DNA from: Liolophura sinensis
Taxonomy: Eukaryota > Mollusca > Polyplacophora > Chitonida > Chitonidae
NCBI RefSeq assembly: GCF_032854445.1
Contig: NC_088298.1
Coordinates: forward strand, 5,638,160-5,702,159
Reading direction: 5' to 3'
DNA: 64,000 bases
In this document: piece by piece, positions 7,611 to 64,000 of the stretch
Layout of the letters: each line of letters begins with the position of its first letter
Numbering within the stretch: position 1 is the stretch's first letter
The notes under the pieces: generated by a model
Databases searched by the model: none
What the model saw: only the letters and a program-made list of their open reading frames with translations
Told to the model about the DNA's origin: nothing
Made by a program: the position numbers and the translations under genes

Positions 7611-7620
7611 TTTTCATTTC

Positions 7621-7622
7621 AG
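7621..7622 (+). promoter_or_regulatory. Probable splice acceptor of a 5' UTR intron
   Basis: A T-rich stretch ending TTTTCATTTCAG lies 20 nt before the TRIM start codon at 7643, suggesting that the leader is spliced and transcription starts upstream. Confidence 0.5.
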
Positions 7623-7642
7623 GAGAAAAAGACAAGAGAATA

Positions 7643-8311
7643 ATGGCCGAAAGCAAGCAGAATCGTGATGATGTTTCCACATGCTCTATATGTATGGAAA
7701 CGTTCCGGAAACCAGTAACGCTACCCTGTCAGCACAGCTTTTGTAGGGAATGCATTGGTTTGTATGCTGACAAGTCTAAACCTGTACGGGCAGATGAGAC
7801 CTCTGGCAGCACGGGGAATGAGGACGTTCATCAACTGATCTCATGCCCTGTGTGTCGGGCACCGACCAGTCTAGGGAGAGAAGGTGTGGCTGGTCTGCCA
7901 CCCAACTTTCATCTGGCAAAAATTGTGGAGAGGTTCTCGTCTGTTGTAAAGGTTGAGGATGACACCCCATATTGTTCTATGTGTGAGGTGGAAAATCACG
8001 CTAAAGCTGTCAAGTTTTGTACCAACTGTGGTGTGCTCTACTGTCAGGAATGTCTTGCAAATTACCATCCAATGCGGGGGCCTCTGAAACGTCACCGACT
8101 GATTTCCTCCGTGGAGTACCTCTCCCAGGACACCTCACAGGGTCAAGTCAGCAGAGACCACCAATCTACTCAACAAGCCACATGTTCTAGACATGGTCAG
8201 CCATTCTGCTTGTACTGTGTAACGTGCCGGATGGTGATCTGTCTGGGGTGTGTGGTTGACCATCCGAAACACGCTGTGCAAGATATAAAATCTGCAGCTG
8301 AGAATGACAAG
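7643..8311 (+). CDS. TRIM exon 1: RING, B-box 1, B-box 2
   Basis: It encodes residues 1-223, phase 0 at the end, donor AAG|GTAAGG. The RING has an unusually long, acidic, Ser/Gly-rich loop of 30 residues between C37 and C68. B-box 1 ligands are C111, C114, C126, C129, C134, C137, H142 and H151. B-box 2 ligands are C181, H184, C192, C195, C200, C203, H207 and H210. All zinc ligands are present, so the module looks functional. Confidence 0.95.
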
Positions 8312-35137: not shown

Positions 35138-36965
35138 TGGTACAACGACTTCCAATGGCTTTCACTCTGTCTGACCAAGAAGAGTGTGTTTTGTTTTCAT
35201 TGCCGAAAATGCCACCGAAACAAGGAACTGACGGTGAGTAGAAATTTGGAGAGTGCATTTACAAAGGATGGATTCCAGAATTGGAAAAAGCTAGACAGAG
35301 ATTTCAGCAACATGGACAGAATGAAGGACATCGGGAAGTAGTGTATAAATTAAAATCCCATGAAAATAGACCGATCCAGGCACAACTTCTGGACCAATTA
35401 TCTAAATCTCAAGCTCTTAACAGAGAAATGTTTCTGAAACAGCTGTCAAGTTTGCGAATGCTGCTGAGGCAGGGAAGCGCTATCCGCGGACACCACGATA
35501 TGGAATCCAATCTTGAACAACTTCTTTTACTGAGATTAGAATATAAGCGTCATATCCGACATTCGTATACCACTCGTAGTCCGTAAAGGGCGTTCCAAGT
35601 CGCTAATCGCAAGAATTCCTGCACTGAAAAATTGGAAAAATTGAAAAAAGACCTCATAGGAATGGTGAATGTTGACAAAACAGATTCAGATACTTTGACC
35701 AAATCCATTAAAGATGTCCTCCTTCAGTCCTCTTAGTCACTTAACCAATGTAGAGGTCAGGGTTATGACGGCGCATCAAATATGATAGGAAGCCTTCATG
35801 GTGTGGCTACACAAGTCAGGAAGGAAGAACTGTTTGCTCTCCATGTACACTGCTTCGGCCATTGCTTGTACCTTTGTCTGCAAAACGCTGCTAAACAGTG
35901 TAGTATTGTTAGGGACTCTCTTAGTCTAATTCAGGAAATATACCAACTCATTCGCTTTTCACCAAAACGAAACGCTTTGTTCCAGAAGGTGCAAAGCGAA
36001 ATATCCCCTGCATCTCCAAGTTTGCGTCCACTCTGTCCTACAAGGTGGACGGGCCGCACAGGTACAATACAATCAGTCGTGGACAACTGTGAAGCTCTTT
36101 TGGAAACCACGGAGGAAATAAATTCCACAACGCATGAGGAATGTGGGATAAACACTCTGGGGGAATAGTCGCTCAAATGACGAAATTCCAAACATTATTT
36201 GGCCTTCTCTTGTGTCCTGCTTTCTTTAGGGAAAATCAAGCACTGTAAACTCCCCTCATCGAAATTGACGTGGCAAAAAAATCCTTAACCGGACAGCATG
36301 AAGATGGGTCGTTTGAGATATTTTATCAACAGGTGCTGGAGGCTGCCAGTAAACACACGGACAATCCTTGTTTACGGAGGTATGTTCGAGGACCCGGGCG
36401 TGTGAGAGTACTTTCGTAAAATCTACTTTGAGGTGCTGGACTTGGTGACGCAGGAAATTTCAGGACGGTTTGACCAATACTCCTTGACTGTTTCAAAAGC
36501 TGTACGGGATCTCCTTCTCGAGGCAACAGATTGGGATGGAGTTCGGGATTTGGATGTCAACGAGAAAGTTCTCAAATTGTATGCCAAAGACCTAGATGGA
36601 AGTCGCCTCAAAAGTCAGCTGAAAATGTTACCAAAACTAGTTCGGCAAGTGCGAGAAGGCCCGGGCGTCTTGCACTGTCTTAAGAAAGTAACAACTGTTG
36701 AAACCGTTGTTGAAATCCTGGAGCATACAAGTAACTACCCGTTGGTACCTGCTGAAACCGGGTTGTTCTCAGAGGTCGCCAAACTTCTAAGGATATTCAG
36801 AACAATCCCAATTTCCAGTGCTTCTGCAGAGAGATCGTTTTCAGATCTACGTAGGTTAAAAACATACTTGCGTTCAACAATGACTCAATCTAGACTAAGT
36901 AATCTAATACTGATTCATTGCCACAAAGACCTTGCTGACAAAATTCATTTATTGGGGGTAGTGAG
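35138..36965 (+). pseudogene. Decayed hAT-type transposase (TTF/BED finger class)
   Basis: Three in-order pieces lie in shifting frames. (1) At 35138-35300 is a TTF-type zinc finger: WYNDFQWLSLC, FCFHCRKC, then ESAFTKDGFQNWKKA. (2) At 35750-36165 is the catalytic core region: QCRGQGYDGASNM, HCFGHCLYLCLQNA and CPTRWTGR. (3) At 36430-36960 is the C-terminal dimerisation region: ASAERSFSDLRRLKTYLR, then SRLSNLILIH. At least one early frameshift and stops at about 35736, 36166 and 36250 break it. A 75-bp foreign segment at 35545-35618 replaces part of the core. I could not find terminal inverted repeats or an 8-bp duplication. Extinct copy. Confidence 0.88.
35545..35618 (-). repeat. Fragment related to the 31168-31434 exon, inside the hAT relic
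   Basis: On the minus strand it reads CD, a stop, RLGTPFTDYEWYTNVGYDAY, nearly the same as the phrase in the exon at 31168-31434. It interrupts the transposase frame. Confidence 0.7.
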
Positions 36966-36984
36966 GGAATCCGGGAGGTTTTTC

Positions 36985-37175
36985 TTTTATCTGTTTCATT
37001 AGTGCTTTACGCCGTACTCAAGGATATTTCACTTATACGACGGTGGCCAGCATTGTAGTGGGAGGATATCGAGCAGAGACCCAGGGGATCCCAAGGCCAT
37101 CCGTAGGTTGCTGGGGAACCTTCCCACATACGGCAGTGATTCGTAGGCGAGCTCCTAGACAACTCGGCCACCAGT
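36985..37175 (-). mobile_element. SINE type 1, diverged
   Basis: It has GTGCTTTACGCCGTACTCAA, then ATTTCACTTATACGACGGTG and GCCATCCGTAGGTTGCTG. It starts right after the end of the hAT relic. Confidence 0.75.
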
Positions 37176-44500: not shown

Positions 44501-47500
44501 TGGGTCCTGCAGAACTGATACGTCGTGGGGAAGAAACAGAGGTGAGACAATAGCTAATCTTATCTGATAGACTATTAACAAGAAAGAAAGGAAGATATCA
44601 CCTGTCAAATAACTAATACAAATGTATTACAAATATCTGAGTTTAGATGCCCACCATATGACCACGAGAGGGAGATGGATTTAAGTTTAGGATCTGGCTG
44701 TACTTCACCTCCCCGGTTAAAAAAAATATCAAAGAGTTCAAAGAGCCTTTCCCACATGTATATTTCCCTGGCACAGTGTTGGAGGTTTACTCTGTTATTA
44801 TCCACTGGTTAGTGGTTAATGTGCCAGCACATTGTAATGACTCAGGAGCCTCTCGTCAGTTGATGCTGTCACTTTGAGTTCAAATCCGGCTCATGCTGGC
44901 TTTCTCCCTGACCCTGCTCGGGAAAGTCTGCCAACAACCAGATGGTCGTGGGATTTCCTCGGGCTCTGCCCCGGTCTCCTTCCATCATAACGTTGTCACC
45001 ATTGTATAAGTGAAATATTCTGGACTATGGCATTAACCGTCAATCAAATAAATAATTACATAAATTTCTGATTTCAGGAGATGGGAGGATATTTCATCGT
45101 TAACGGAATAGAAAGAATTATCCGTATGCTCATCATGCCCAGGAGAAATTTTGTGAGTTTGTCAATCACCACTCCATGTTATATTTCAGCTTTTAGCACC
45201 AACACTTTTTTTATCTAAAAAAAAAATAATTATAATTATAGTGAATGTTGTGAAATACGAGTGAGAGATAATTTTATGTTCCAAAAAAATTTATCACACC
45301 GTAATGATTCATTCAAAGCTGAATTGCAGCCCTCATAATTAGGGATCACATTCTGCAGAAGCCGTCACCCTTGTAATTAGGAATGGCATTCTGCAGAAGC
45401 CGTCACCCTTGTAATTAGGAATGGCAATCCACAGAAGCCGTCACCCTTGTAATTAGGGATGGCAATCTGCAGAAGCCATCACCCTTGTAATTAGGGATGG
45501 CATTCTACAGAAGGCGTCACCCTTGTAATTAGGAATGGCATTCTGCAGAAGCCGTCATGATTGTAATTAGGGATGGCATTCTGCAGAAGCCGTCACCCTT
45601 GTAATTAGAGATGGCATTCTGCAGAAGCCGTCACCCTTGTAATTAGGGATGGCAATCTGCAGAAGCCGTCATGATTGTAATTAGGGATGGCTTTCTGCAG
45701 AAGCCGTCACCCTTGTAATTAGGGATGGCATTCTGCAGAAGCCTTCACCCTTGTAATTAGGGATGGCATTCTGCAGAAGCCGTCACCCTTGTAATTAGGG
45801 ATGACATTCTGCAGAAGCCGTCACCCTTGTAATTAGGGATGGCAATCTGCAGAAGCCGTCACCCTTGTAATTAGGGATGGCATTCTGCAGAAGCCTTCAC
45901 CCTTGTAATTAGGGATGGCATTCTGCAGAAGCCGTCACCCTTGTAATTAGGGATGGCTTTCTGCAGAAGCCGTCACCCTTGTAATTAGGAGTGGCATTCT
46001 GCAGAAGCCGTCACCCTTGTAATTAGGAATGGCATTCTGCAGAAGCCGTCACCCTTGTAATTAGGGATGGCAATCTGCAGAAGCCATCACCCTTGTAATT
46101 AGGGATGGCATTCTGCAGAAGCCGTCACCCTTGTAATTAGGAATGGCATTCTGCAGAAGCAGAATAAGTGAAAATTTTCACCCGTTAAGTGAAAATAGGA
46201 TGCACTGTCCTTCATGCCATTACAGCATTTGACAAATGGCATCGTTGTGAACATAGCCGATAAAAATAAACTTGACTTACTTTTAGTCCACTCGTTGTAC
46301 TGTATTTCATGCCTAGATACAACAAATCACATCGTCTGAATGTGGCTTCTGAAATAAACTCGTCATGTTTTTTTCATTCTTTCACTTCTAGGTCGGATTC
46401 CATGTGTCAAAACAACTAATTGCATTTTATGTACACGACTTTACAAACCTGATCAATATTTTCCACCCAACAGCCCATGTGTATCGTACGTCCGTCCTGG
46501 AAAAAACCGTGGCAACCAGTACACAGAGTTTGGCATCTCCCTACGCTGTGTGACGGAGGACCAGTCAGGAGCGGTAAGTCTGTTTTGTTGTCATGACAAC
46601 AGTACAGGCAGACAAACTCTGATCATGCCAATATGGGAGTTTCAGTTTGAACTCTGTTATCGCTTTTGGTAAAAAAGGAAAGCCCTACTGTACCATTTGA
46701 CCTGCCTGAAATTGTTTTTTTCTTTTTTTTTTTTTTTTTTTTGATCACATGTGCTAAAACATGAGTGTCTGAAAATACCTTAAAGTTATTTAGAGTAGAT
46801 AAACAATGGAGGAAATAGAAGAGCTGAACATCAGAAAGTTGTGAAGTTTCTAAATAATGTCCACAAGAGTTGCCTTACATTTTTGACAAGACACATGATA
46901 CAGTGGGACATTTTTTGCCTTTAGCAACAATCAAAGTTTGATCTTTAAAGCTCTCCATAGTATTGGTTTTTTCGATGGTTAGCAGGGGTCAAGGGTATTA
47001 AAAGGTAGTTAAGTTGATAAATAGATTTGAACATACAGGTTTTCTTAGTTGATTTATCTATTTATTTCCTGGGTATTATATTTGTTGTATATTTTGATAT
47101 AACACTGAAGTACACAAAATTTTGTTTTCTACATGTTGTTTTGCATGTGAAAGCCTTAAGGAAAGAGTAGTTTCACTGAACTGTAATTTCTTTAACCTTT
47201 TGTATGTTTGCAAGATGTTTGTTTAAGCATATTCCGACAGCATTATTTTGAGCAAATTGATAAAATTATGCTTTTTGTGAAGCCCTGAAAATTTCCAATC
47301 CAACCAATGTAGTTTGATCTCCAAAATCAAGTTATAATTGTGCTAAAAGTGCTCAGAAAGTTTGCTCTTTCATATGCGAAAAGGCCGAGGGTTGAAAAAA
47401 GAAAGATATAATTACTGTATGTATATATACCAGTAGGTTAAGTTATCCAGCCATTGTGAGGCTCCTAAAGGAATAATTGTAACGTTGTCTAACAAAGTAA

Positions 47501-50500: not shown

Positions 50501-53500
50501 GCAGTGGTCATGGGTTGTTAGCAAGTAAATAGGGCCAGTTGTGAGGTTTTGCCTAAATAAATATGGGATACATATGAGTTGAGCTTACATGTTAGAAAGT
50601 TTGTTAGTAACTGTATGTTTCCATCACACTTTTTTTTTCTTTTGGGTACAGCTGTGTTATCTTCATGCTGAGGCAGGCATTGGATGAAGGGTTGACCAAT
50701 CAGAAGACAGTCCTCAAACACATCGGGGAACGATTCCGTCCCAAACTGCGAAAACCAGAGTGGTACTCTGATGAGGATCTTGGGAGACATTTGTTTCGGT
50801 AAGTCCCAGGAATGTCTTAGGAGACATTTGTTTCAGTCAGTCCCAGGAATGTCTTGGGAGACATTTGTTTCGGTAAGCCCCAGGAATGTCTTAGGAGACA
50901 GTTGTTTCGGTAAGTCCCAGGAATGTCTTAGGAGACATTTGTTTCGGTAAGTCCCAGGAATGTCTTGGGAGACATTTGTTTCAGTCAGTCCCAGGAATGT
51001 CTTAGGAGACATTTGTTTCGGTAAGTCCCAGGAATGTCTTAGGAGACATTTGTTTCAGTCAGTCCCAGGAATGTCTTAGGAGACAGTTGTTTCAGTCAGT
51101 CCCAGGAATGTCTTAGGAGACATTTGTTTCAGTAAGTCCCAGGAATGTCTTAGGAGACATTTGTTTCAGTCAGTCCCAGGAATGTCTTAGGAGACATTTG
51201 TTTCAGTCAGTCCCAGGAATGTCTTAGGAGACATTTGTTTCAGTCAATCCCAGGAATGTCTTAGGAGACAGTTGTTTCAGTCAGTCCCAGGAATGTCTTA
51301 GGAGACATTTGTTTCGGTAAGTCCCAGGAATGTCTTAGGAGACATTTGTTTCAGTCAGTCCCAGGAATGTCTTAGGAGATATTTGTTTCAGTCAGTCCCA
51401 GGAATGTCTTAGGAGACATTTGTTTCAATAAGTCACAGGAATGCCTTGGGGGACATATTTCAAAAAGTGCTGAGGTTTTGGTTGTTCCTCTGGCTTTATT
51501 GTCTATACCCATGTAGTCCTGTGTGTAAGGATACCCACGTAGTCCTGTGTGTAAGGATACCCACGTAGTCCTGTGTGTAAGGATACCCACGTAGTCCTGT
51601 GTGTAAGGATACCCATGTAGTCCTGTGTGTAAGGATACCCACATAGTCCAGTGTGTAAGGATACCCATGTAGTCCTGTGTGTAAGGATACCCACGTAGTC
51701 CTGTGTGTAAGGATACCCACATAGTCCTGTGTGTAAGGATACCCATGTAGTCCTGTGTGTAAGGATACCCACATAGTCCAGTGTGTAAGGATACCCATGT
51801 AGTCCTGTGTGTAAGGATACCCACGTAGTCCTGTGTGTAAGGATACCCACGTAGTCCTGTGTGTAAGGATACCCATGTAGTCCTGTGTGTAAGGATACCC
51901 ACATAGTCCAGTGTGTAAGGATACCCACATAGTCCTGTGTGTAAGGATACCCACGTAGTCTAGTGTGTAAGGATATCCACGTAGTCCTGTGTGTAAGGAT
52001 ACCCATGTAGTCCTGTGTGTAAGGATACCCACGTAGTCCTGTGTGTAAGGATACCCATGTAGTCCTGTGTGTAAGGATACCCACATAGTCCAGTGTGTAA
52101 GGATACCCATGTAGTCCTGTGTGTAAGGATACCCATGTAGTCCTGTGTGTAAGGATACCCACGTAGTCCTGTGTGTAAGGATATCCACGTAGTCCTGTGT
52201 GTAAGGACACCCACGTAGTCCTGTGTGTAAGGATACCCATGTAGTCCTGTGTGTAAGGATACCCATGTAGTCCTGTGTGTAAGGATACCCACGTAGTCCT
52301 GTGTGTAAGGATACCCATGTAGTCCTGTGTGTAAGGATACCCACGTAGTCCTGTGTGTAAAGATACCCATGTAGTCCTGTGTGTAAGGATACATATGTGT
52401 TATGAAATGAAAACTAAATTATTTGGGTACCAATGGCCATCAGACATTATACAGTATACCTAATGCACAGATCTCGTGATACGTATGAGAAGTAGTTTGG
52501 CATATAAAAAGATTAATGATGTACTTGTGAATAAGGTAAAATTAATGCCAAGTTTTCGATGAAGTGTTTGTATTGTGGATATGAATATGAAATATATTTA
52601 ATACAAAAAAATGCAACATTCTCTGTCATGGATGATGTTTTTTCTTTTATATTTGTGTATTTTTTTATTCTTAACTAACTTCATATTTGTGGTCTCTTCC
52701 TTCTTGTTTCAGACATTGTGTGTGCTTTCATCTCCACTCCAATGTGGAAAAGTTCAACCTTTTAGTGTGAGTTTCAAGTTTTTGAATGTAACAAATGTTT
52801 GATGAGGTCAGGAATTTTTACACTGGGATATGTAATTATGTATTCACAAAAAAAGATATCAAATCAAAATACATGTACCTGTAAACAGATTGTTCATATA
52901 TTCTTTTATTATGAATCACAAGTACATACATATATTTAGGCCAAAACCTGGAATGGTGTCAGAGTCTAGAATGGGGCCAAAGCCTGGAATGGGGTCAAAG
53001 TCTGGAATGAGGCCAATATCTTGAATAGGGTTAAAGCCTGGAATGGGGTCAAAGTCTGGAATGAGGCCAATATCTTGATGGGGTTAAAGCCTGGAATGGG
53101 GTCAAAGTCTGGAATGGGGTCAATGTCCGGAATGGGGCCAAAGCCTGGATTGGGGTCAAAATAGCCATTGAGGCCAAAGCCTTGAGTGGGGCCTTAGCTC
53201 AGGGATTGGGATCAAAGCTGAAGGATTGGAACCAAAGCTGGAGGATTGGAACCAAAGCTGGAGGATTGAGACCAAAGCGGAAGGATAAGGGCCAGTGCTA
53301 AGGGACTGGGGCCAATGCTGAAGGATTGAGGCCAAAGCTAGATGTCATGGCTTGGGGAATGAATCTAGCTCCTGGTGGTATCTCTGTACCTGTGTATGCA
53401 ACTTTGTTCAAGAAATGTGATAATCTTGATTGATGAAGTCTATTTTTGCCGACCAACATTCTGTTGTTAAAACCTTGTCTTAACATTACATGTACACTTT

Positions 53501-56500
53501 TGTGAAAAGAAAAACATAGATCTGAAGAAAAGGGAAATTCTGAAGCTGTATGTTATCACTTCTCAGGTACATGACACAGAAACTGTTCGTGTTTGCCAAA
53601 GGTGGCTGTGCCACAGAGAGTGCGGATAATCCCATGAACCAGGAGGTGCTGCTAGGGGGTCATCTCTACCTCATGGTGCTCAAGGTAGGGACCATCTTCA
53701 AATAACATGATGTTTGGTGATTTATGAGCATTTGGCGAAAAAGGTTGCCACAGCACATAGATCTGTAGAAGAGAAATGTCATAAAATAGTACTTTTGCTA
53801 CTGAGACTTGAATTGTCCAGTATGGTGGTATTACCCTCTTTACAATCCAAACAAACCTCAAACATCATTTTAAGATCAGCAGAACACTTTAAAATGTGGC
53901 AGAAGGAGGAAATTAGTCAACAGATTTGTCCATTTTATATGTCAGTATTTTATTCATTTGATTGATACTTTACACTGTGCAGAAGAATAGTTCATGTAAA
54001 CATAAAAACCCACTGTCACATTGTGATTTTTCATGGGACGTTGAAATTTAAACTTTATAAACTTGTGGCATGAGTTCTGAGCTGGACACAAAACACTGAA
54101 AAACTTGTGAGGCTCATTATTCACACAGACTGAGGTGTGTGTGTGTGTGTCGGGAGTGGGGGGGACGGGACCGGCAGGGCAGTGGGGACTGGATTGGGTG
54201 ACTTGAGGGTCCTATACTCTGTCCTTCATAGTCTTTCAGTGATCCATGTGTATATATAGTTTTAGTGGACACACATAAAGTAATATTGTACTGGACACAC
54301 AGGAAACAATGTTTTACTGGACACAGAAAACAATGTTTTACTGGACATACAGAAAACAATGTTTTACTGGACACACAGAAAACAATGTTTTACTGGACAT
54401 ACAGACAACAATGTTTTACTGGACACACAGAAAATAATGTTTTACTGGACACACTGAAAACAATGCTTTACTGGACACACAGAAAATAATGTTTTACTGG
54501 ACACACAAAAAACAATGTTTTACTGGACACACAGAAAACAGTGTTTTACTGGACTCCCAGAAAACAGTGTTTTACTGGACACACACAAAGCATTTTTTTA
54601 CCGGATACACAGAAAGCAATATTTTACTGGATACAAAGTGTTTTACTGGACTGATGGAAACCAATGTTTTTCTGGACACAGAGAAAACAGTGTTTAGCTG
54701 GACTCAGAGAAAGCTGTGTTGTACTGGACACAGAGACAACAGTGTTTCACTGGACACAGAGAAAGCATTGTTTTACTGGACATGGAGAAAACAGTGTTTT
54801 ACTGGACACGGACACGGAAAGCAATGTTTTACTGGACACAGGGAATATAGTATTTTACTGGACACAGAGAAAACAGTGTTTTATTGGACACAGATAAAGC
54901 AGTGTTTTATTGGACACAGATAAAACAATGTTTTATTGGACACAGATAAAGCAGTGTTTTATTGAACACAGATAAAGCAGTGTTTTACTGGACACACAAA
55001 AAACAGGGTTGTACTCGACACCCAGAAAACCATGTTTCACTGCACACTCAAAAAGCAATATTTACTGACAAACAAAAAAACAATGTTGTACTCGCCACAC
55101 AACGTAATGCTTTGCTGGACACACATAAACCATTGTGTTACTGGATACACAGAAAACAGTGTTCAACTGCACACTCAAAAATCAAAGGTTTACTGGACAC
55201 AAACAACTTTTGTGTTGCAGGAGAAGATAGAATCTTGGCTTCATTCTCTTAGGACATCCATTGAAAGGACAGCCAAAGGAAAAGGCACTGCTTTGGATGT
55301 AAACCTGGGTAAGTAAGAACATATAATTCATTTGAAACAGTGGATTGTGGGATGACTGTTTCTGACCATTTTGACCAGTGATGTCAGGTGTTTACCAGTA
55401 AGCACGCACTCAGGGTCTTACCTTTCTGCATTCACAGGGTATGTACATGTAAAGGTGTGAAGAGCAAAATATACTGATGTAGGAACATTGACACCCATTG
55501 GGTACTAACAGACCACTGTAGAATCTAATGTTTTACAAGAATTCAACTGGGATAAATTCCACCAAGAAAAAAAAAAGAAACAAAAACTAATTAAACTAAT
55601 GGTCTTTCCTCAGTTGCAACTTCACTGTCTCTATCACTGCTTCTTTCTTAGGTACAATTTCTGATGCATGTCGGCATGGCCTAGAGGTGACCAAACCCAT
55701 GGAGTATCTCATGGCCACAGGGAACCTGGTATCCAGAACAGGACTGGGCCTTATGCAGGTACAGTACAGCTGGTGTTTACCTGATTGTGCTATATCCCTC
55801 ATGACGTGGAGGTGACCAATCCCATGGAGTATCTCATGGCCACAGGGACAGGACTGGGCCTCATGCAGGTACAGTACAACTGGTGTTTACGTGATTGTCC
55901 TGTATCCCTCATGACATGGAGGTGACCAAACCCATGGACTATCTCATGGCCACAGGGACAGGACTGCGACTCATGTAGGTACAGTACAGCTGGTGTTTAC
56001 CTGATTGTGCTATATCCCTCATGACGTGGAGGTGACCAATCCCATGGAGTGTCTCATGGTCACAGGGACAGGACTGCGACTCATGCAGGTACAGTACAGC
56101 TGGTGTTTACCTGAATGTGCTATATCCCTCATGACGTGGAGGTGACCAATCCCATGGAGTGTCTCATGGCCACAGGGACAGGACTGCGACTCATGCAGGT
56201 ACAGTACAGCTGGTGTTTACCTGAATGTGCTATATCCCTCATGACGTGGAGGTGACCAATCCCATGGAGTGTCTCATGGCCACAGGGACAGGACTGCGAC
56301 TCATGCAGGTAGAGTACAGCTGGTGTTTCCTGATTGCGTTATATCCCTCATGACATGGAGGTGACCAAACCCATGGAGTATCTCATGGCCACAGGGAACC
56401 TGGTATCCAGAACAGGACTGCGACTCATGCAGGTACAGTACAGCTGGTGTTTACCTGATTGTGCTATATCCCTCATGACGTGGAAGTGAACAATCCCATG

Positions 56501-59500
56501 GAGTGTCTCATGGCCACAGGGACAGGACAGCGACTCATGTAGGTACAGTACAGCTGGTGTTTACCTGATTGTGCTATATCCCTCATGACGTGGAAGTGAA
56601 CAATCCCATGGAGTGTCTCATGGCCACAGGGACAGGACTGGGCCTCATGCAGGTACAGTACAACTGGTGTTTACGTGATTGTCCTGTATCCCTCATGACA
56701 TGGAGGTGACCAAACCCATGGACTATCTCATGGCCACAGGGACAGGACTGCGACTCATGTAGGTACAGTGCAGCTGGTGTTTACCTGAATGTGCTATATC
56801 CCTCATGACGTGGAAGTGAACAATCCCATGGAGTGTCTCATGGCCACAGGGACAGGACTGCGACTCATGCAGGTACAGTACAGCTGGTGTTTACCTGAAT
56901 GTGCTATATCCCTCACGACGTGGAGGTGACCAATCCCATGGAGTGTCTCATGGCCACAGGGACAGGACTGGGACTCATGCAGGTAGAGTACAGCTGGTGT
57001 TTCCTGATTGCGTTATATCCCTCATGACATGGAGGTGACCAAACCCATGAGTGTCTCATGGCCACAGGGACAGGACTGCGACTCATGCAGGTACAGTACA
57101 GCTGGTGTTTACCTGATTGTCCTATATCCCTCATGACATGGAGGTGACCAATCCCATGGAGTGTCTCATGGCCACAGGGAACCTGGTATCCAGAACAGGA
57201 CTGCGACTCATGCAGGTACAGTACAGCTGGTGTTTACCTGAATGTGCTATATCCCTCATGACGTGGAGGTGACCAATCCCATGGCCACAGGGACAGGACT
57301 GAGACTCATGCAGGTACAGTACAGCTGGTGTTTACCTGATTGTGCTATATCCCTCATGACGTGGAGGTGACCAATCCCATGGAGTGTCTCATGGCCACAG
57401 GGACAGGACTGCGACTCATGCAGGTACAGTACAGCTGGTGTTTACCTGATTGTGCTATATCCCTCATGACGTGGAGGTGACCAATCCCATGGAGTGTCTC
57501 ATGGCCACAGGGACAGGACTGGGCCTTATGCAGGTACAGTACAGCTGGTGTTTACCTTATTGTCCTGTGTCCCTCATGACATGGAGGTGACCAAACCCAT
57601 GGAGTATCTCATGGCCACAGGGACAGGACTGCGACTCATGCAGGTAGAGTACAGCTGGTGTTTACCTGATTGTCCTGTATCCCTCATGACATGGAGGTGA
57701 CCAAACCCATGGAGTATCTCATGGACACAGGGACAGGACTGGATCTCATGTAGGTACAGTACAGCTTGTGTTTACCTGATTGTCCTATATCCCTCATGAC
57801 ATGGAGGTGACCAAACCCATGGAGTATCTCATGGCCACAGGAACAAGACTGGATCTCACGTAGGTACAGTACAGCTGGAGTTTACCTGATTGTCCTGTAT
57901 CCCTCATGACGTGAAGGTGACCAAACCCATGGTATCTCATGGACACAGGGACAGGACTGGGACTCATGTAGGTACAGTACAGCTGATGTTTACGTGATTG
58001 TCCTGTATCCCTCATGACGTGAAGGTGACCAAACCCATGTAGCCACCAGTGTGTGCCTTTGTTTGGTGGGAATAATTATTACTTAGACAAACGATATGTG
58101 GATTTCACTTAAGTTTAATTATATTTAAAATCAGTGGGCAAAACTTATGCAAAATTACCTGAATACAATTGGCACATGACTTGAAGGGTGCCAAAGATAT
58201 TTTAGCCTTATAAATCGAATTGACTTCAGGTTTGTGTTTGTGCGGGGCATGAAACCAAAACTGACCCATGTTATCCAGGCATTAAAATCATTGTGTGAAG
58301 TCTTTCATGGGTAATTGTAGCTGCCCACACTGTAAAAAATTGCACTTAGAAAAAACTGATGACTACTTGTGTTTTTTTGCTTTTTTGTTATAAAATGATG
58401 AATTTTTGCATTGTAGGCCACAGGTCTGACTGTTGTAGCCGACAAACTGAACTTCATGCGTTACATATCTCACTTCCGATGTATTCATCGCGGAGCGTTT
58501 TTCGCACAAATGAGGACGACAGCCGTTCGTAAACTTCTACCCGAGGCCTGGGGTATGTATGCTATGTGTAACATTGTCATTTCTGGCAGTAGAGTGCAAA
58601 TGTTTTTATTTCTGACCAGGTTAATTTGGAAATTTATCACGTACTTGTAGACATATTGTTATGTCATGACAAGGTGTCCAATCCGGTGTCCAGTACGGTG
58701 TCCATTACCCTAATTCTAAGGCCAGATATTAGTACTGCTGAAAGCCAGAAATTCTCCCCCAGTGTTTTGGGAAAAGGAAAGATATGAATACATTGTTCAT
58801 TAGATGGACTAACCATGCAAAAACAAATGAAATATTCTGCACATAATTACACATATATTGGCAAAAATAGAGCAGACTAGGTGTCATAAACTTTCTTTTG
58901 GAAGAAGTTTTTTAAATCCAGCCTCCACCTTAATTGTGTTAGTCACATCTAAAAGCATGACTTTAAAATAATTGGGATCAGCCCCAGTTCTGTTACTCTC
59001 TCTTTGCCTGTATTCCAGGTTTCCTGTGCCCCGTACACACACCCGATGGAACCCCCTGTGGACTGATGAACCACATGTCTGCTCTCTGCCAGGTGAGTGC
59101 GGGACAGGTATAATGGGTGGATGTAACAGTATCGAATGTTATTTTCACATTTTTATAAGGAAAATAGACAGGCATAAAATACAAGAAGAGACAACGCCAG
59201 TCCAAATGTATATATCAGCATGGATAAAGTATTCCACAGGAGGTTTAGGAAGCATAACTTTCTATTTTTGTAATGGTGCATAAACAGGCTATCACAGTTC
59301 AAAGTGAGCAAAAGGATGTGCCTTGAGAAATCAAAAATGCTACCGTGTGTTCAGTGTTAACCTGTCATGTCAGAACCAAATGGCTGACATCTGACCACTT
59401 GTTCCACCCTTATCTGAAGTACGCCCTAACTAAGGTTAAATTATTTGTGGCCTTTTTAAGTAAAACTGTTAACAGAACTCAATCTTTTTCTTTGGAGAAG

Positions 59501-62500
59501 TAAAGTGTAAATAGAGTTTTTAAAAAAAACCTGATTTATTGTTGCAGATTGTGAACATTCAGTTCCGTGTGGCCCACCTCCCGAGAGTTCTCGTGGCATT
59601 AGGGATATGCCCGTTTGATGGGCCATTACCAGCTCCCGTGAAGGAATGCTACACTGTGCTGCTGGATGGGAAAGTCTGTGGCTACGTCCCCGATGAACAT
59701 GCGCAGGATTTAGAGCGAAGGTTACGGGTCATGAAGGTTCAAGGTCAGGAAAAGGTCAGGAGTTTTAATTCATCACTTTAAAGTTGTAAGTAAAATTAAC
59801 GAATTCATTCTCTCACATACTCATTCTTTCTACCCGGCGCGCATAAAACTGGCAAACAACAGTGAGATAAAATAAATAGCTTCGGCAAGGATTTTACTGT
59901 CATCAGTTTCAGCATAAACAATTTATGTATTCATTTATTTGATTGGAAATTTATGTCCTACTCAAGATTTATTTCACTTATATATGCACAATGGCGGTCA
60001 GCATTTTGGTGGAAAGAAACTGAGCAGAGCTTGGACAAAACCCAGCGATTATCTGCAGGTGTCGTGGTAGAGCGTCCCACTAACGACTGAGGAGGAAGCC
60101 AGCATGACCTGGACCTAACTCACAGTGACTGCATTGGTAAAAGGACCCTGAGCCATTATGCTGCGCTAGCACACTTTAAATCAGTAGGCCATGATGGAAC
60201 AAACATAAGTAAATGCTATCGCTGATTTTAATTATCAGTGACACTTCCAGAATTAACCACCAGTGACAAAAGTGCATCTTTGTTTTTGTTATCCGTAGAT
60301 TCCACCACTGATAGAAATCTGTCTTGTGCCCAAAACAAAAGTGGCTAGTCAGTACCCAGGATTGTACATCTTTACCGGCTTAGCGCGGATGATGAGACCC
60401 GTTACAAACCTGGCGCTGAATAAGGTGGAGATGATAGGCACATTTGAACAAGTTTACATGAACATAGCCATAGTACCAGAGGAGATGGAGGTAGCCGTAA
60501 GTTTTCATTTTTATCTCGTATGTCATATATTATATCCAAGGGTAAGATGAGCCAAAGCTTGACTAAATATAAAACTGAAAATCCACTATTTATTTTGTCA
60601 GTGCTCCATGTTTTTATGATATACCTGTTTTTATGATATACCTGTTTTTATGATATACCTGTTTTTATGATATACCTGTTTTTATAGGCTTTCTGATAAT
60701 GTAAATGTGACTTCAGCAGGAAAAATTGTCAGGACAATCCTGGTTTTTACGTTCTTGGTCTTATCCTGACACACCCACTCTAAAATTTAAATTTATCTAT
60801 TAGATTGGAGTTTTTCTGCCATTCTCAAGAATATTTCACTCATACTCAGTGGCGAGCATTATGGTGGAAGGAAACTGGGGGGAAGACCTTTCAACATATG
60901 ACAGGAAAGGAAGCCAATGTAACCTGAGCTTACAGTGAACACATTGGTGAGAGGCCCCTGAGTCATTGTGCTGCGGTAGCATGCTGACTGCATGGCCATG
61001 GAGGCCTCTCTCTCACATTTAAAAAGTTACAGTAGATTATTAGTATTTTTTAATGCTCTCACATTTAAAAAGTTACCGTAGAGTATTCCTATTTTTTTTA
61101 ATGGTCTCACATTTAAAAAGTTACAGTAGATTATTCCTATTTTTTAATGCTCTCCTGTGGATGCAATTAGGGGATCTTGATTTGCACCTGTACATGGATG
61201 TGTTGTCAACTTCTGCTTTTTCTTTTACATGTGGAATAAGGTAATTTTTAAATACCAATGAGAATGTAATCAAAAATTTAATAAAAGGAGACTTTACACC
61301 ATATTTGTCATATTCAGATTAAATTTTTCTGTTTTCAAGTTTTCAGATTATTTAAAAAATTTGGACTATTTTTATAGAAATATTGATAGTGAACAAAAAA
61401 TTTCAACATAAAAAAACAAAAATTTTGTAACAACACACATGAACATCCAAAGACTGTTTTGTTGTGGTGTCAGTATAATGTAACTGGGTGGGTGTCCAGT
61501 TTGGTGTCTTCAGCATGGCATACCACTGAGCAGCATTGTAAATAATTCTGACTTTAATCATGTTGAAAGCAGCATTAATACTCAACCAAGCAAACTTGGA
61601 GATAAATTAGATAGTTAATTATTCCACAAAAGATGTGAAGATATTATGATTCTTTAATGGCATGTCTATCTTGTCTCAGACTTCAGTCTTGCTGCTCTCA
61701 ATCTGTTTCAGGTAACGACCCACCAGGAGCTTAATGAGCAGAGCATGCTGAGTGCCGTCGCCAGCTTTACACCTTTTTCTGACTTCAACCAAAGTCCCAG
61801 GAATATGTACCAGTGTCAGGTGTGTGGCAAGATTGACTCATACATTGGTCAGTTATGTTTTTTTTTTTTTTTTTAATGACTAATTACTTAATTAAATATG
61901 TAAATAATTAGATACCATGTTTTTCACTTCTGGATAATATTTATTTATGTATTTGATTGATGTTTTACGCCATAAATTTCACTTATACGACGGCGGCCAG
62001 CGTTGTGATGGGAGGAAACCGGGCAGAACCTGGGGGAAAACCATGACCATCCGCAGGTTCATGCCATCACTCACCGCTAAAACAACAGTGTATGTTTGTA
62101 ACAGATATATATGTTTGCTTTTGGATGGGTAAACAAACGATGGGCACACCTCTTCATGCCATCGCTCACCGCTAAGACAACAGTGTATGTTTGTAACAGA
62201 CATATATGTTTGGTTTCAGATGGGTAAACAAACGGCGGGCACACCTCTTCATGCCTTCGCTTACCTCTAAGACAACAGTGTATGTTTGTAACAGATATAT
62301 ATGTTTGGTTTCAGATGGGTAAACAAACGATGGGCACACCTCTTCATGCCTTCACTCACCGCGCGGACAACAAACTGTACAGGATCCTCTTCCCACAAAC
62401 CCCTATGGTCCGACCAATCATCTATGACCAGTACAAGGTGGATAACTACCCGTTGGGAACCAACGCTATTGTGGCTGTCATCTCGTACACGGTAAGACTT

Positions 62501-62989
62501 CGGTATTGAACCCTCAGAACACAAAAAAAAAAATTTTTGTAGCATGTTTGTTGTGGTTTTTTTCATCATGGGTTCAATGAAACCATTAACTGTATGTAGC
62601 TTGCTGTTTCTACCAAAGCGTTGTTGAAGTCAAAATTGGTGTATTTTCAAGGCTTATTATTACTAACACATAATTTAGAATTAAGAACCATTTCAAAAAA
62701 CATTTGTTATTTTACCATAATTCACAGTTTGAACTCAGGAGGCATCATGGTACGTGCTCATCTACTTCACACAAGACGGGAACTCACATGATTTGTAAAC
62801 ACTCAGCTTTGATGTCGTATTTTTGTCATTTTCCATATTTTTATCATTTCCGTATTTTTGTCATTTCCATATTTTTGTCATTTTCGTACCCTTTCTGTGG
62901 CACAGGGCTACGACATGGAGGATGCAATGTGTCTGAACAAGGCTTCATATGAGAGAGGTTTTGCTCACGGGGTGATCTACAAGTCAGAG
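38461..62989 (+). CDS. POLR1B: POLR1B (RPA2): second-largest subunit of RNA polymerase I, 5' 22 exons; continues beyond the window
   Basis: Twenty-two exons, listed separately, encode 775 residues of a protein of about 1130 aa; the wall, anchor and clamp regions lie past the right edge. Every intron is GT-AG and all phases agree, apart from one extra A in exon 8. It is the Pol I form, not Pol II or [33 protein letters not shown] and SHFRCIHRG follow RPA2. The protein pairs with POLR1A to form the catalytic core that transcribes the 47S pre-rRNA in the nucleolus. GYDMEDA (exon 22) corresponds to the Rpb2 motif whose acidic residues help hold the second magnesium. The start at 38461 is chosen because [12 protein letters not shown] runs straight into the conserved N-terminus with a good donor. 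Introns are loaded with minisatellites and SINEs. Confidence 0.97.
39242..39385 (+). mobile_element. SINE type 1, head half only
   Basis: In POLR1B intron 1. It has GGGCCTCCTTGGCTGAGGGG, then GGTTAGCACGGCACAATGAT and CAGCAACCTGCAGATGGTCATG; the 3' half is missing. Confidence 0.75.
40222..40322 (+). mobile_element. SINE type 1, 3' fragment
   Basis: In POLR1B intron 1. It has TTTCTTTCCACCATAATGTG, then GGCCACCATCATATAAG, and the end AACCAATCAAATGAATAAAT. An internal deletion has removed the TTCACTT...CGTAAAAC part. Confidence 0.7.
40433..40510 (+). CDS. POLR1B: POLR1B exon 2 (residues 28-53)
   Basis: Phase 0 on both sides; acceptor CTGTTTCAG, donor GTACAG|GTAAGT. It encodes [20 protein letters not shown], the conserved start of the protrusion, where the FN.ML motif meets the POLR1B family. 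Confidence 0.95.
40979..41130 (+). mobile_element. SINE type 1, head half
   Basis: In POLR1B intron 2. Head GGTCTCCGTGGCCGAGGTGG, B-box region GTGAGTTCCAAGTCC, ending at CAGCAACCTGCGG. The 3' half is missing. Confidence 0.8.
41324..41383 (+). CDS. POLR1B: POLR1B exon 3 (residues 54-73)
   Basis: Sixty nt, phase 0 on both sides; acceptor TTGTTTCAG, donor ATTAGG|GTAAGA. It encodes [20 protein letters not shown], part of the protrusion. Confidence 0.93.
41840..42440. repeat. 24-bp minisatellite in POLR1B intron 3
   Basis: The unit is TTAAGAGGCTTGTGTAGCAAGGGA, about 25 copies, some 22-23 bp. It shares nothing with the flanking exons. Confidence 0.93.
42718..42792 (+). CDS. POLR1B: POLR1B exon 4 (residues 74-98)
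   Basis: Phase 0; acceptor CTATTTGTAG, donor GCTGAG|GTGAGC. It encodes [13 protein letters not shown] followed by [12 protein letters not shown], the conserved block in which the strand leads to the ECR motif. Confidence 0.95.
43303..43475 (+). mobile_element. SINE type 2, diverged and head-truncated
   Basis: In POLR1B intron 4. It has CTTGCAACAAGGAGGCACAT, then AACTCCTTTGTCGTCATTTG and GACGTAAACCCTAAG, ending in CACTCGCTCACTC. It aligns to 34170-34411. Confidence 0.75.
43661..43780 (+). CDS. POLR1B: POLR1B exon 5 (residues 99-138)
   Basis: Phase 0; acceptor TTTATTTCAG, donor GTCAAG|GTGGGT. It encodes [20 protein letters not shown] and ends with GEVPIMVK, the IP.MVKS motif shared by all eukaryotic second-largest subunits, completed in exon 6. 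Confidence 0.97.
44194..44443 (+). mobile_element. SINE type 1, nearly full length
   Basis: In POLR1B intron 5. Head GGAGGCCTCTCTGGCTGAGG, B box GAGTTCAAGTCC, end GAAATATTCTTGAGGAAG and AAACACCAGTCAAATAAAG. A 7-bp TTATTGC on both sides may be the target duplication. Confidence 0.88.
44476..44541 (+). CDS. POLR1B: POLR1B exon 6 (residues 139-160)
   Basis: Phase 0; acceptor GGTTTCACAG, donor ACAGAG|GTGAGA. It encodes [20 protein letters not shown] and TE, the variable stretch before the conserved GGYFI motif. Confidence 0.94.
44803..45060 (+). mobile_element. SINE type 1, diverged
   Basis: In POLR1B intron 6. It has GGTTAGTGGTTAATGTGCCA, then GAGTTCAAATCCGGCTCATG and the tail GTCAATCAAATAAATAATTA. 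It ends about 17 nt before exon 7. Confidence 0.85.
45078..45152 (+). CDS. POLR1B: POLR1B exon 7 (residues 161-185)
   Basis: Phase 0; acceptor CTGATTTCAG, donor AATTTT|GTGAGT. It encodes [20 protein letters not shown] and PRRNF, one of the most conserved blocks of the subunit. Confidence 0.98.
45322..46165. repeat. 38-bp minisatellite in POLR1B intron 7
   Basis: The unit is TGCAGAAGCCGTCACCCTTG followed by TAATTAGGGATGGCATTC, about 22 homogeneous copies. Two copies (near 45556 and 45668) share the variant GTCATGATTG, which suggests unit copying over distance. Confidence 0.95.
46474..46573 (+). CDS. POLR1B: POLR1B exon 8 (residues 186-218) with a one-base frame break
   Basis: Acceptor CACCCAACAG, donor GGAGCG|GTAAGT. 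The exon is 100 nt, but the flanking phases require 99. The first part reads [10 protein letters not shown]; the second part reads [18 protein letters not shown] one frame away. The six-A run at 46501-46506 has one A too many. Otherwise the family pattern (RP.WK.RG..YT.(F/Y)G) is intact. A sequencing or assembly error in a homopolymer is the simplest reading; a real null allele is the alternative. Confidence 0.93.
47578..47673 (+). CDS. POLR1B: POLR1B exon 9 (residues 219-250)
   Basis: Phase 0; acceptor TTCCCTCAG, donor CTCAAG|GTAAAT. It encodes [20 protein letters not shown] and [12 protein letters not shown], beginning of the lobe. Confidence 0.96.
48945..49205. repeat. ~21-24-bp degenerate minisatellite in POLR1B intron 9
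   Basis: Units of the type GGGCACTGTGGTTTCCCCT repeat about 12 times with much variation. Spurious frames open on both strands. Confidence 0.8.
49323..49399 (+). CDS. POLR1B: POLR1B exon 10 (residues 251-276 in part)
   Basis: Acceptor TTTGTGACCCAG, donor CAGAGG|GTAAGT, leaving in phase 2. It encodes [20 protein letters not shown] and DSFYR; the G.EDDSF pattern is typical of the lobe. Confidence 0.95.
49533..50035. repeat. 55-bp minisatellite in POLR1B intron 10
   Basis: The unit is GTGATATTTTGTGAACTTTA, then TGACTGATTTTGAACGGTAA and CGACAGATAGGAGAT, about 9 copies, 55 bp apart where measured (49591 to 49646). Confidence 0.93.
50219..50360 (+). mobile_element. SINE type 2, short form, with target duplication
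   Basis: In POLR1B intron 10. Head AGCCCGGATAGCACAGTTGG then TAGAGCGTCTGCTTC (A-box type), end TTGTTGAGTACGACGTTAAA and (CTCA)n. The duplication CTCAAAAAGTACTC is at 50205-50218 and 50361-50374. The B-box region has been lost compared with the copy at 34053. Confidence 0.93.
50652..50798 (+). CDS. POLR1B: POLR1B exon 11 (residues 276-325 in part)
   Basis: It enters and leaves in phase 2; acceptor TTTTGGGTACAG, donor TTTCG|GTAAGT. It encodes [20 protein letters not shown], then [10 protein letters not shown]. Its last 18 nt and the donor are the first unit of the 37-bp array that follows. Confidence 0.95.
50781..51456. repeat. 37-bp array made from the exon 11 / intron 11 border
   Basis: Eighteen units, starting with the true border. 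Each has 18 nt of exon (GGAGACATTTGTTTCG in most), the donor position, and 19 nt of intron (GTAAGTCCCAGGAATGTCT). TTGTTTC recurs at 50791, 50828, 50865 and so on to 51420. About six extra units keep a usable donor (CGGTAAG or CAGTAAG); the others carry CAGTCAGT, which lacks the GTAAG core. Confidence 0.95.
51508..52395. repeat. 26-bp minisatellite in POLR1B intron 11
   Basis: The unit is GTAGTCCTGTGTGTAAGGAT followed by ACCCAC, about 34 copies, very homogeneous. The period is not a multiple of three, yet all three minus-strand frames stay open for hundreds of codons because no phase of the unit contains a stop. Confidence 0.96.
52713..52766 (+). CDS. POLR1B: POLR1B exon 12 (residues 325-343 in part)
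   Basis: Fifty-four nt, phase 2 to phase 2; acceptor TCTTGTTTCAG, donor TTTAGT|GTGAGT. It encodes [17 protein letters not shown], matching the IC.HL.SN.EKF.ML pattern. A donor two bases upstream (GTGTGA) would break the frame with exon 13. Confidence 0.92.
52940..53345. repeat. 18-20-bp degenerate array in POLR1B intron 12
   Basis: The first part has 18-bp units (GGGGTCAAAGTCTGGAAT and variants). From about 53215 the units are 20 bp (GGAACCAAAGCTGGAGGATT). About 20 units in total; one array changes period along its length. Confidence 0.88.
53567..53684 (+). CDS. POLR1B: POLR1B exon 13 (residues 343-382)
   Basis: It enters in phase 2 and leaves in phase 0; acceptor ATCACTTCTCAG, donor CTCAAG|GTAGGG. 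It encodes [14 protein letters not shown], then [19 protein letters not shown], with the D(N/S)..NQEVL signature. Confidence 0.96.
54268..55205. repeat. 26-bp minisatellite in POLR1B intron 13
   Basis: The unit is GTTTTACTGGACACACAGAAA plus ACAAT, about 36 copies, diverging towards the 3' end; it runs to within about 15 nt of exon 14. Confidence 0.94.
55221..55308 (+). CDS. POLR1B: POLR1B exon 14 (residues 383-412 in part)
   Basis: It leaves in phase 1; acceptor TTTTGTGTTGCAG, donor AACCTGG|GTAAGT. It encodes [20 protein letters not shown] and KGTALDVNL. Confidence 0.94.
55652..55758 (+). CDS. POLR1B: POLR1B exon 15 (residues 412-447)
   Basis: It enters in phase 1 and leaves in phase 0; acceptor CTTCTTTCTTAG, donor ATGCAG|GTACAG. 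It encodes [20 protein letters not shown] and LGLMQ, the fork-region signature of POLR1B. Its last 75 nt are the source of the 110-bp array in intron 15. Confidence 0.97.
55684..58040. repeat. 110-bp array made from the exon 15 / intron 15 border
   Basis: About 20 units follow the true border. Each has about 60 nt of exon 15 (GAGGTGACCAAACCCATGGA...TCATGCAG) and 50 nt of intron (GTACAGTACAGCTGGTGTTT...). The donor recurs at 55759, 55869, 55979 and 56089, 110 bp apart. Most units lack 15 nt of the exon (the NLVSR codons), but the ones near 56391 and 57178 keep them. Confidence 0.96.
58417..58552 (+). CDS. POLR1B: POLR1B exon 16 (residues 448-493 in part)
   Basis: It leaves in phase 1; acceptor TTGCATTGTAG, donor CCTGGG|GTATGT. 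It encodes [20 protein letters not shown] and [20 protein letters not shown], the fork loop, among the most conserved parts of the enzyme. Confidence 0.98.
58708..58915. mobile_element. MITE relative of 11339-11521, degenerate
   Basis: In POLR1B intron 16. It has TA then CCCTAATTCTAAGGCCAGAT, the shared core AAAGATATGAATA.ATTGTTCATTAGATGG, and CTAGGTGTC near the right end. The right inverted repeat is eroded. Confidence 0.65.
59019..59092 (+). CDS. POLR1B: POLR1B exon 17 (residues 493-517)
   Basis: It enters in phase 1 and leaves in phase 0; acceptor CTGTATTCCAG, donor TGCCAG|GTGAGT. It encodes [20 protein letters not shown] and ALCQ; the [14 protein letters not shown] motif is near-universal in this subunit. 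Confidence 0.98.
59548..59754 (+). CDS. POLR1B: POLR1B exon 18 (residues 518-586)
   Basis: Phase 0; acceptor TTGTTGCAG, donor GAAAAG|GTCAGG (a weaker donor). It encodes the external-2 region, including [19 protein letters not shown]. Confidence 0.95.
59935..60192 (-). mobile_element. SINE type 1, diverged, near full length
   Basis: In POLR1B intron 18. It has ATTTATTTGATTGGAAATTT, then CTACTCAAGATTTATTTCAC and GAGGAAGCCAGCATGACC, ending at TTATGCTGCGCTAGCAC. Confidence 0.85.
60299..60496 (+). CDS. POLR1B: POLR1B exon 19 (residues 587-652)
   Basis: Phase 0; acceptor GTTATCCGTAG, donor GTAGCC|GTAAGT. It encodes [14 protein letters not shown], then [17 protein letters not shown] and [15 protein letters not shown], matching the YPGL..FT...R..RPV..L and IGT.EQ..MN signatures. 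Confidence 0.97.
60606..60688. repeat. 17-bp tandem repeat in POLR1B intron 19
   Basis: GTTTTTATGATATACCT repeated just under five times without change; a very young array. Confidence 0.9.
60790..61010 (-). mobile_element. SINE type 1, diverged
   Basis: In POLR1B intron 19. It has TTAGATTGGAGTTTTTCTGC, then CTCAAGAATATTTCACTCAT and GAGCATTATGGTGGAAGG, ending GGCCATGGAGGCC. Confidence 0.82.
61012..61152. repeat. ~46-48-bp tandem repeat, three copies
   Basis: The unit is CTCTCACATTTAAAAAGTTA, then CAGTAGATTATTAGTATTTT plus TTAATG; starts at about 61012, 61058 and 61105. Confidence 0.85.
61712..61819 (+). CDS. POLR1B: POLR1B exon 20 (residues 653-688)
   Basis: Phase 0; acceptor CTGTTTCAG, donor TGTCAG|GTGTGT. 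It encodes [20 protein letters not shown], then [16 protein letters not shown]; the FSD.NQSPRN motif is family-diagnostic. Confidence 0.98.
61938..62058 (-). mobile_element. SINE type 1, truncated at the 95-bp array
   Basis: It has TATTTGATTGATGTTTTACG, then TCACTTATACGACGGCGGCC and CCATGACCATCCGCAGGT, then passes directly into exon-21-like sequence at 62059. Confidence 0.85.
62059..62372. repeat. 95-bp array made from the intron 20 / exon 21 border
   Basis: Exon-like starts (ATGGGTAAACAAACG) lie at 62125, 62220 and 62315 (the real one), 95 bp apart, with a partial unit before them. Each unit has about 58 nt resembling exon 21 and 37 nt of intron ending in the acceptor. The unit at 62220 keeps a perfect TTTGGTTTCAG acceptor; the one at 62125 has lost the AG (TTTTGG). 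Confidence 0.93.
62315..62491 (+). CDS. POLR1B: POLR1B exon 21 (residues 689-747)
   Basis: Phase 0; acceptor TTTGGTTTCAG, donor TACACG|GTAAGA. It encodes [20 protein letters not shown], then [20 protein letters not shown] and [19 protein letters not shown] is the Pol I form of the MGKQAMG motif. Confidence 0.98.
62818..62888. repeat. ~18-bp T-rich tandem repeat before exon 22
   Basis: TATTTTTGTCATTTCCA-type units repeat four times and form the pyrimidine-rich run into the exon 22 acceptor. Confidence 0.8.
62906..62989 (+). CDS. POLR1B: POLR1B exon 22 (residues 748-775), last exon seen
   Basis: Phase 0; acceptor TTCTGTGGCACAG, donor TCAGAG|GTAAGT. It encodes [20 protein letters not shown] and HGVIYKSE. 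The Glu-Asp of GYDMEDA corresponds to the acidic pair of Rpb2 near the second active-site magnesium. Its last 31 nt seed the array that fills the rest of the window. Confidence 0.97.
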
Positions 62990-64000
62990 GTAAGTACACA
63001 GTAGCTGTGTGATGGGAGGATTTGGTCACGGGATGATCTACAAGACAGAGGTAAGTACGCAGTAGCTGTGTGATGGGAGGATTTGGTCACAGGGCGATCT
63101 ACAAGTCAGAGGTAAGTACGCAGTAGCTGTGTGATGGGAGGATTTGGTCACGGGGTGATTTACAAGTCAGAGGTAAGTACGCAGTAGCTGTGTGATGGGA
63201 GGATTTGGTCACGGGGTGATCTACAAGTCAGAGGTAAGTACGCAGTAGCTGTGTGATGGGAGGATTTGGTCACGGGGCGATCTACAAGTCAGAGGTAAGT
63301 GCGCAGTAGCTGTGTGATGGGAGGATTTGGTCACGGGGTGATCTACCAGTCAGAGGTAAGTGTGCAGTAGCTGTGTGATGGGAGGATTTGGTCACGGGGT
63401 GATCTACAAGTCAGAGGTAAGTACGCAGTAGATGTGTGATGGGAGGATTTGGTCATGGGGTGATCTACAAGTCAGAGGTAAGTACGCAGTAGCTGTGTGA
63501 TGGGAGGATTTGGTCACAGGGCGATCTACAAGTCAGAGGTAAGTACGTAAGTACACAGTAGCTGTGTGATGGGAGGATTTGGTCAAGGGTTGATCTACAT
63601 GTCAGAGGTAAGTACGCAGTAGCTGTGTGATGGGAGGATTTGGTCACGGGGTGATCTACAAGTCAGAGGTAAGTACGCAGTAGCTGTGTGATGGGAGGAT
63701 TTGGTCACGGGTTGATCTACAAGTCAGAGGTAAGTGCGCAGTAGCTGTGTGATGGGAGGATTTGGTCACAGGGCGATCTACAAGTCAGAGGTAAGTACGC
63801 AGTAGCTGTGTGATGGGAGGATTTGGTCACTGGGAGATCTACAAGTCAGAGGTAAGTACGCAGTAGCTGTGTGATGGGAGGATTTGGTCACGGGGAGATC
63901 TACAAGTCAGAGGTAAGTGCGCAGTAGCTGTGTGATGGGAGGATTTGGTCACGGGGAGATCTACAAGTCAGAGGTAAGTACGCAGTAGCTGTGTGATGGG
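62959..64000. repeat. 61-bp array made from the exon 22 / intron 22 border, runs past the window
   Basis: At least 16 units follow the true border. Each has about 31 nt of exon 22 (TTTGGTCACGGGGTGATCTA...CAGAG) and 30 nt of intron (GTAAGTACGCAGTAGCTGTG...). Nearly every unit keeps the donor CAGAG|GTAAGT or GTAAGTG. One unit near 63541 has an extra AAGTACGT. The end of the array is not in the window. Confidence 0.96.

Follow-up and report, generated by a model that had tools for sequence, protein, structure and literature searches.

Four tandem arrays built from exon–intron borders in a POLR1B gene

The window, by which we mean the whole stretch of 64,000 bp that was analysed, contains a piece of a LACC1-like gene at 1387–1956 (Pfam Cu-oxidase_4, E 6.5e-41), a TRIM-like gene, the remains of a hAT-type transposase at 36406–36999 (Pfam Dimer_Tnp_hAT, E 4.3e-9), and, from 40433 to the window end, a gene for POLR1B/RPA2, the second-largest subunit of RNA polymerase I. 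The ORF at 35737–36165 gave no match in Pfam, and an Rfam scan of the whole window returned 0 matches. The TRIM-like gene was recognised by its RING and B-box (ORF 7595–8389) and its SPRY domain (ORF 16953–17567), all of them identified with Pfam. The intron before its SPRY exon carries two minisatellites between 12408 and 16081, with units of 42 bp (49 copies) and 82 bp (12 copies), which lie off the exon borders as these were set by eye.

The POLR1B gene is encoded on the + strand. Its exons were mapped by the reading frame and by the GT/AG sites, which defined exons 2–22 and their introns between 40433 and 62989 (21 exons, approximately 2.2 kb of coding sequence); the mapping did not reach exon 1, and the window ends before the last exons. 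Joined together, exons 11–22 give one uninterrupted reading frame (499 aa) corresponding to residues 284–777 of human RPA2 (7ob9_B) with an E value of 5.8e-194, while exons 2–7 match residues 35–189 (E 2.5e-46) and exons 9–10 match residues 225–279 (E 1.6e-13) of the same protein. Given the frame and these matches, the exon borders used in the analysis can be considered secure. A Pfam search of two short POLR1B exons found no match. Exon 8 (46474–46573) has 100 nt, where 99 would preserve the frame, and the frame switches between two well-matching pieces of this exon at a run of six A; this disruption is probably a homopolymer sequencing error, and possibly the mark of a broken allele.

Within this gene, we observed four tandem arrays, with units of 37, 110, 95 and 61 bp, each of which consists of a piece of exon, the splice site and a piece of intron. 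The borders amplified are the donors of exons 11, 15 and 22, and the acceptor of exon 21. Array 1 (50778..51456, + strand; TRF 37 bp × 18.4, 93% match) is formed by units of 21 bp of exon 11 and 16 bp of intron, and its first copy is the 3' end of exon 11 itself (50652..50798, donor at 50798/50799). Array 2 (55738–58039 according to TRF, + strand; 110 bp × 20.8) includes 21 copies of the donor of exon 15 (55652..55758, donor at 55758/55759), and its unit is composed of the end of this exon and about 50 bp of intron; the likeness to exon 15 extends upstream of the TRF start at 55738, to about 55685. Array 3 (62058..62362, + strand; 95 bp × 3.2) is located at the acceptor of exon 21 (62315..62491, acceptor at 62315), with a unit of about 47 bp from the end of intron 20 and the first 48 bp of the exon; in this array the real border is the last copy. 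Finally, array 4 (62955..64000, + strand; 61 bp × 17.0), which is cut by the window end, corresponds to the donor of exon 22 (62906..62989, donor at 62989); its unit is made of 35 bp of the exon and 26 bp of intron, and the sequence AG/GTAAGT is retained in all 17 copies.

The mapped borders at 50798, 55758, 62315 and 62989 are therefore contained in the TRF arrays, as anticipated by a preliminary description of this DNA in which the four arrays were regarded as amplified splice junctions, and its numbering of the exons (11, 15, 21 and 22) fits if a single, unlocated exon 1 is counted. The same description had every array starting at the real border, which is correct for the donors of exons 11, 15 and 22 but not for exon 21, where the array ends at the acceptor border. 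The units of the four arrays are unrelated to each other: the six pairwise local scores fell in the range of shuffled sequences, with the observed score being reached by 0.16–0.65 of 300 shuffles. Descent of the four arrays from one ancestral repeat was accordingly rejected, and the proposal that they arose as independent events is supported.

Other repeats are present in their neighbourhood. Directly after array 1, in the same intron, there is an array of 26 bp × 34 (51505–52392) that does not include a border, in which the donor-like sequence TGTGTAAGG occurs 33 times. A SINE-like interspersed repeat (61995–62060) directly abuts the upstream edge of array 3, and its core pattern recurs at 12 places across the two strands of the window when at most 5 of 25 mismatches are allowed. 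Overall, the region is rich in tandem repeats, which occupy 9029 of 23568 bp in POLR1B versus 5528 of 40432 bp outside it.

We evaluated the consequences that splicing at the additional copies would have on the reading frame. All 53 donor copies located downstream of the real donors (17, 20 and 16 in arrays 1, 2 and 4, respectively) would bring an in-frame stop codon into the mRNA. This stop is found 1 nt past the real donor in array 1, 54 nt past it in array 2 and 12 nt past it in array 4; given that each donor array has one stop, the 53/53 represents three facts and not 53 independent ones. Regarding the upstream copies of array 3, the first has no AG, and use of the second would change the frame and lead to a stop. 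From these results, obtaining the protein requires splicing at the outermost border of each array. This contradicts the idea, put forward earlier, that any one good splice site would be enough, since the outermost copy is the only useful one.

The predicted pairing with U1 was then compared among the donor copies. In array 4, the first donor has a predicted energy of −12.1 kcal/mol and the 17 copies range from −11.8 to −12.6 kcal/mol, and in array 2 the 21 copies range from −7.5 to −9.5 kcal/mol, with −9.4 for the first. In array 1, 17 of the 18 copies were scored, as the search pattern missed one, which has no pairing energy; five of these 17, including the first, showed −9.3 kcal/mol, one showed −5.6, and the remaining 11 were weakened to between −1.2 and −2.5 kcal/mol, mostly by carrying A/GTCAGT. 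According to these predictions, the strength of U1 pairing would not single out the outermost border. The exon 22 array presents 17 donors in a row with nearly equal predicted strength, and splicing at any but the first would give no protein. The gene therefore provides a natural test of how the correct site is selected among many near-identical ones, by being transcribed first or by the pairing of exons.

To describe the variation among the copies, the exon part of the units was compared allowing gaps. The identity between inner copies was 0.948, 0.938 and 0.941 in arrays 1, 2 and 4, and that between the first copy and the inner ones was 0.913, 0.921 and 0.907, respectively, with 16 of the 17 copies of array 4 included in this comparison. 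When the copies were ordered by how distinct their exon part is, the first one ranked 1 of 18, 4 of 21 and 2 of 16, respectively; in the intron part, it was more distinct than the inner copies only in array 4, and the reverse was observed in arrays 1 and 2. In the exon part, edge and inner copies therefore differ only slightly, and a marked difference was not retained: the larger gap of array 2 was due to an alignment without gaps across a 15-bp deletion, and it shrank when gaps were introduced. This deletion affects the exon piece of 18 of the 21 copies of array 2; the full-length piece is kept by the exon itself and by two inner copies, whose ends lie at 56432 and 57215. Over the compared stretches, 10 of 17 inner units were distinct in array 1, 19 of 20 in array 2, and 14 of 16 in array 4. 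In array 2, an exact repeat of 154 bp recurs at a distance of 784 bp; in array 1, one of 108 bp recurs after 296 bp, and in array 4, one of 111 bp after 435 bp. Such long exact matches, many units apart, indicate that blocks of several units were duplicated.

Considering these observations, which come from one gene in one assembly and from one sequence, we think it probable that the arrays are minisatellites of the type known as 'mirages' in amphioxus, that is, segments spanning a border that were expanded by ordinary turnover and tolerated, with no sign that the extra sites are under selection. In each of the four introns, a short segment that included the exon–intron border by chance would have been duplicated in tandem, and the arrays may then have grown and rearranged by ordinary minisatellite turnover, including the duplication of blocks of several units and unequal exchange or slippage. 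Such duplications would do no harm as long as the outermost border is preserved: in a donor array, this is the copy contiguous with the rest of the exon, and the further copies would become intron, whereas in an acceptor array it is the last copy that would remain intact. For the protein to be made, the spliceosome would have to use the outermost copy, as the others would bring a stop into the mRNA. This site is probably used because it is transcribed first, or because it is the first to be paired with the upstream acceptor; we assume that the correct donor is chosen, although the existence of equally strong donors downstream, as in array 4, counts against this model.

A different possibility is that duplications across exon borders are promoted by some local process (involving, for example, R-loops, nucleosome edges or a change of composition between exon and intron), in which case the borders would be real hotspots. 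To evaluate the position of the arrays, we considered the TRF rows with a score of at least 50 between 40433 and 64000, merging by hand those that overlapped or were neighbours. An exon border was present inside 4 of the 16 arrays obtained. As a null model, every array was collapsed to one unit, and units of the observed lengths were placed randomly in the collapsed gene, excluding the positions in which a unit was wholly inside an exon or covered a whole exon. Four arrays were run with two unit lengths each (short and long), and other arrays with longer TRF periods were run with a single length. When at least 1 bp was required on each side of the border, 1.7 or 2.0 of 16 arrays were expected on a border (short or long units), with P(≥4) of 0.076 or 0.134; with at least 6 bp on each side, the expectation was 1.23 or 1.59 of 16 and P(≥4) was 0.025 or 0.063. 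The P value decreased to 0.006 or 0.028 with at least 10 bp, and to 0.001 or 0.005 with at least 16 bp, although 16 bp is the minimum share among the observed arrays, and the thresholds of 10–16 bp are stricter and post hoc.

Other settings were also applied at 1 and 6 bp. Using 55685 as the start of array 2 resulted in P values of 0.136 (1 bp) and 0.063 (6 bp), and restricting the model to the 12 larger arrays resulted in 0.075 (1 bp) and 0.036 (6 bp). When three arrays of the TRIM-like gene were added, none of which is on a border according to the approximate borders set by eye in that gene, P was 0.181 (1 bp) and 0.089 (6 bp). Across the null runs, 1.2–2.1 of 16 arrays were expected to overlap a border versus the 4 observed, and the weight of these P values is limited by the fact that POLR1B was picked because of its striking appearance. 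A clear statistical excess of arrays on borders was consequently rejected (P 0.025–0.136 at 1–6 bp), and the overlap represents at most a weak excess; the repeats themselves are certainly beyond chance, and their position on borders only weakly so. Hence, the earlier argument that ordinary minisatellites should fall on exon borders too rarely to explain this gene was not established. The arrays on borders have long units (37, 61, 95 and 110 bp; Mann–Whitney P 0.006–0.017), which is predicted by random placement.

Copies of the borders were also searched for directly, using 25 bp on either side of each of 42 borders and a reach of 1500 bp. High-scoring nearby copies were detected at 4 of the 42 borders. 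At the other 38, no nearby copy was found within 1500 bp; the best score was 23, and the control, consisting of 300 intron positions, had a 95th percentile of 32.1 and a maximum of 50. The existence of old duplications at these borders was rejected, as 38/38 were not above the background within this reach.

These data bear on both sides of the proposal that the borders are hotspots. That 4 of 16 arrays exceed the expectation, with P values of 0.001–0.028 when 10–16 bp are demanded on each side, agrees with it and counts against an ordinary turnover indifferent to borders; the values for the 12 larger arrays likewise count against the latter. Additionally, several genes with this type of array have been reported in amphioxus, according to the portions available of PMC3087553 and PMC3902484. 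However, the P values at 1–6 bp (0.025–0.136, and 0.089–0.181 once the TRIM-like gene is included) and the selection of the gene for its appearance weaken the case, and a hotspot would be expected to leave remnants of two copies, none of which was found, at the sensitivity of the search, at 38 of the 42 borders. We consider this process rather unlikely. If it did operate, the borders would be true duplication hotspots in this lineage, which is probably molluscan and not amphioxus, and the long runs of competing sites would point to a splicing in which the first site transcribed is the first to be committed, independently of site strength; to this broader reading we likewise give only limited credence.

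We also contemplated that the arrays could be under selection, with the extra donors acting as decoys for U1 or generating isoforms with stops that lower the output of POLR1B, as in regulated unproductive splicing. The appearance of a stop from each of the inner donors (53/53) and the strong donors of array 4 (17/17) would be in line with this role, as would the GT kept in the 20 inner copies of array 2, a count for which the search pattern required GT and in which the even spacing leaves no room for a missed copy. In contrast, the donors of array 1 are mostly decayed (11 of 17 scored copies are weaker than −3 kcal/mol), and the conservation of the donor 9-mer does not clearly exceed that of the rest of the unit. 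In array 1, no part varies more than this 9-mer (rank 0.97); it is average in array 2 (0.39) and invariant in array 4, where 17% of the windows are equally invariant. On these grounds, selection for keeping the donors was rejected, and an adaptive role of the arrays seems quite improbable. The least probable explanation is that collapsed or misjoined reads created or lengthened the arrays, since, even though a single assembly is at hand and the one-base disruption in the six-A run of exon 8 may be a sequencing error, the inner units differ from each other in the proportions given above, and the deletion shared in array 2 and the multi-unit blocks are as in real minisatellites.

A minisatellite with multiple splice donor sites reportedly exists in the human gene 6-16 (G1P3/IFI6; Nucleic Acids Res. 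1995, reportedly by Turri), where several donors are reported to be used and to give usable transcripts. POLR1B differs from this example, as its 53/53 downstream donors would bring a stop. Contrary to the preliminary description, which knew of no named system like this one, the mirages of amphioxus have the same structure. In the parts of PMC3087553 and PMC3902484 available, they are described in the Adh, globin, troponin C and PGBD5 genes, with units of 10–72, 60, 108 and 150–160 bp and many copies that keep AG/GT; the repeats of 60 and 108 bp are those located on splice sites of lancelet PGBD5, in the portion of PMC3902484 that also cites troponin C and, for the original Adh paper, Canestro 2002. 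As in these genes, the unit of the four POLR1B arrays spans the exon–intron border and joins a piece of exon, the splice site and a piece of intron, both donor and acceptor borders are affected, and some copies keep AG/GT. The two cases differ in that RT-PCR and somatic instability are reported in the available text on amphioxus, whereas the POLR1B arrays are known from one DNA sequence and by their consequences on the frame, and in that, relative to the amphioxus genes as described there, POLR1B combines four arrays, with as many as 21 copies, in a genome whose interspersed repeats seem molluscan. Mirages are also marked by homogenised inner copies with a distinct authentic copy at the edge, of which the POLR1B arrays show only a slight difference in the exon part, and by normal splicing of the mRNA despite the copies and length instability between alleles or cells. 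This kind of structure is, then, already known, and four arrays in one gene make a rich example of it.

Two further systems resemble the POLR1B arrays in part. In human paralogs within segmental duplications, variable internal tandem repeats with units averaging 30 bp occur at exon–intron boundaries (PMC2812944, in the part available), and, as in POLR1B, these minisatellites change the structure of the gene; unlike the POLR1B arrays, they were found by comparing the exons of paralogs, many of them are exonic and polymorphic, and that text does not define them as border arrays. The gain of introns by tandem genomic duplication has also been proposed, for example in the RdRp gene of potato (available part of PMC4974935); in that type a new intron arises, whereas in POLR1B existing introns grow and no new intron was seen. 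If the host of this DNA is a lancelet, the POLR1B arrays would be one more case of a phenomenon already described, and if it is a mollusc, they would extend it. If the host is not a lancelet, mirages would reach beyond the lancelet genes for which the literature found uses the name, and their presence outside lancelets, if true, would bear on the proposals that such repeats seed new introns.
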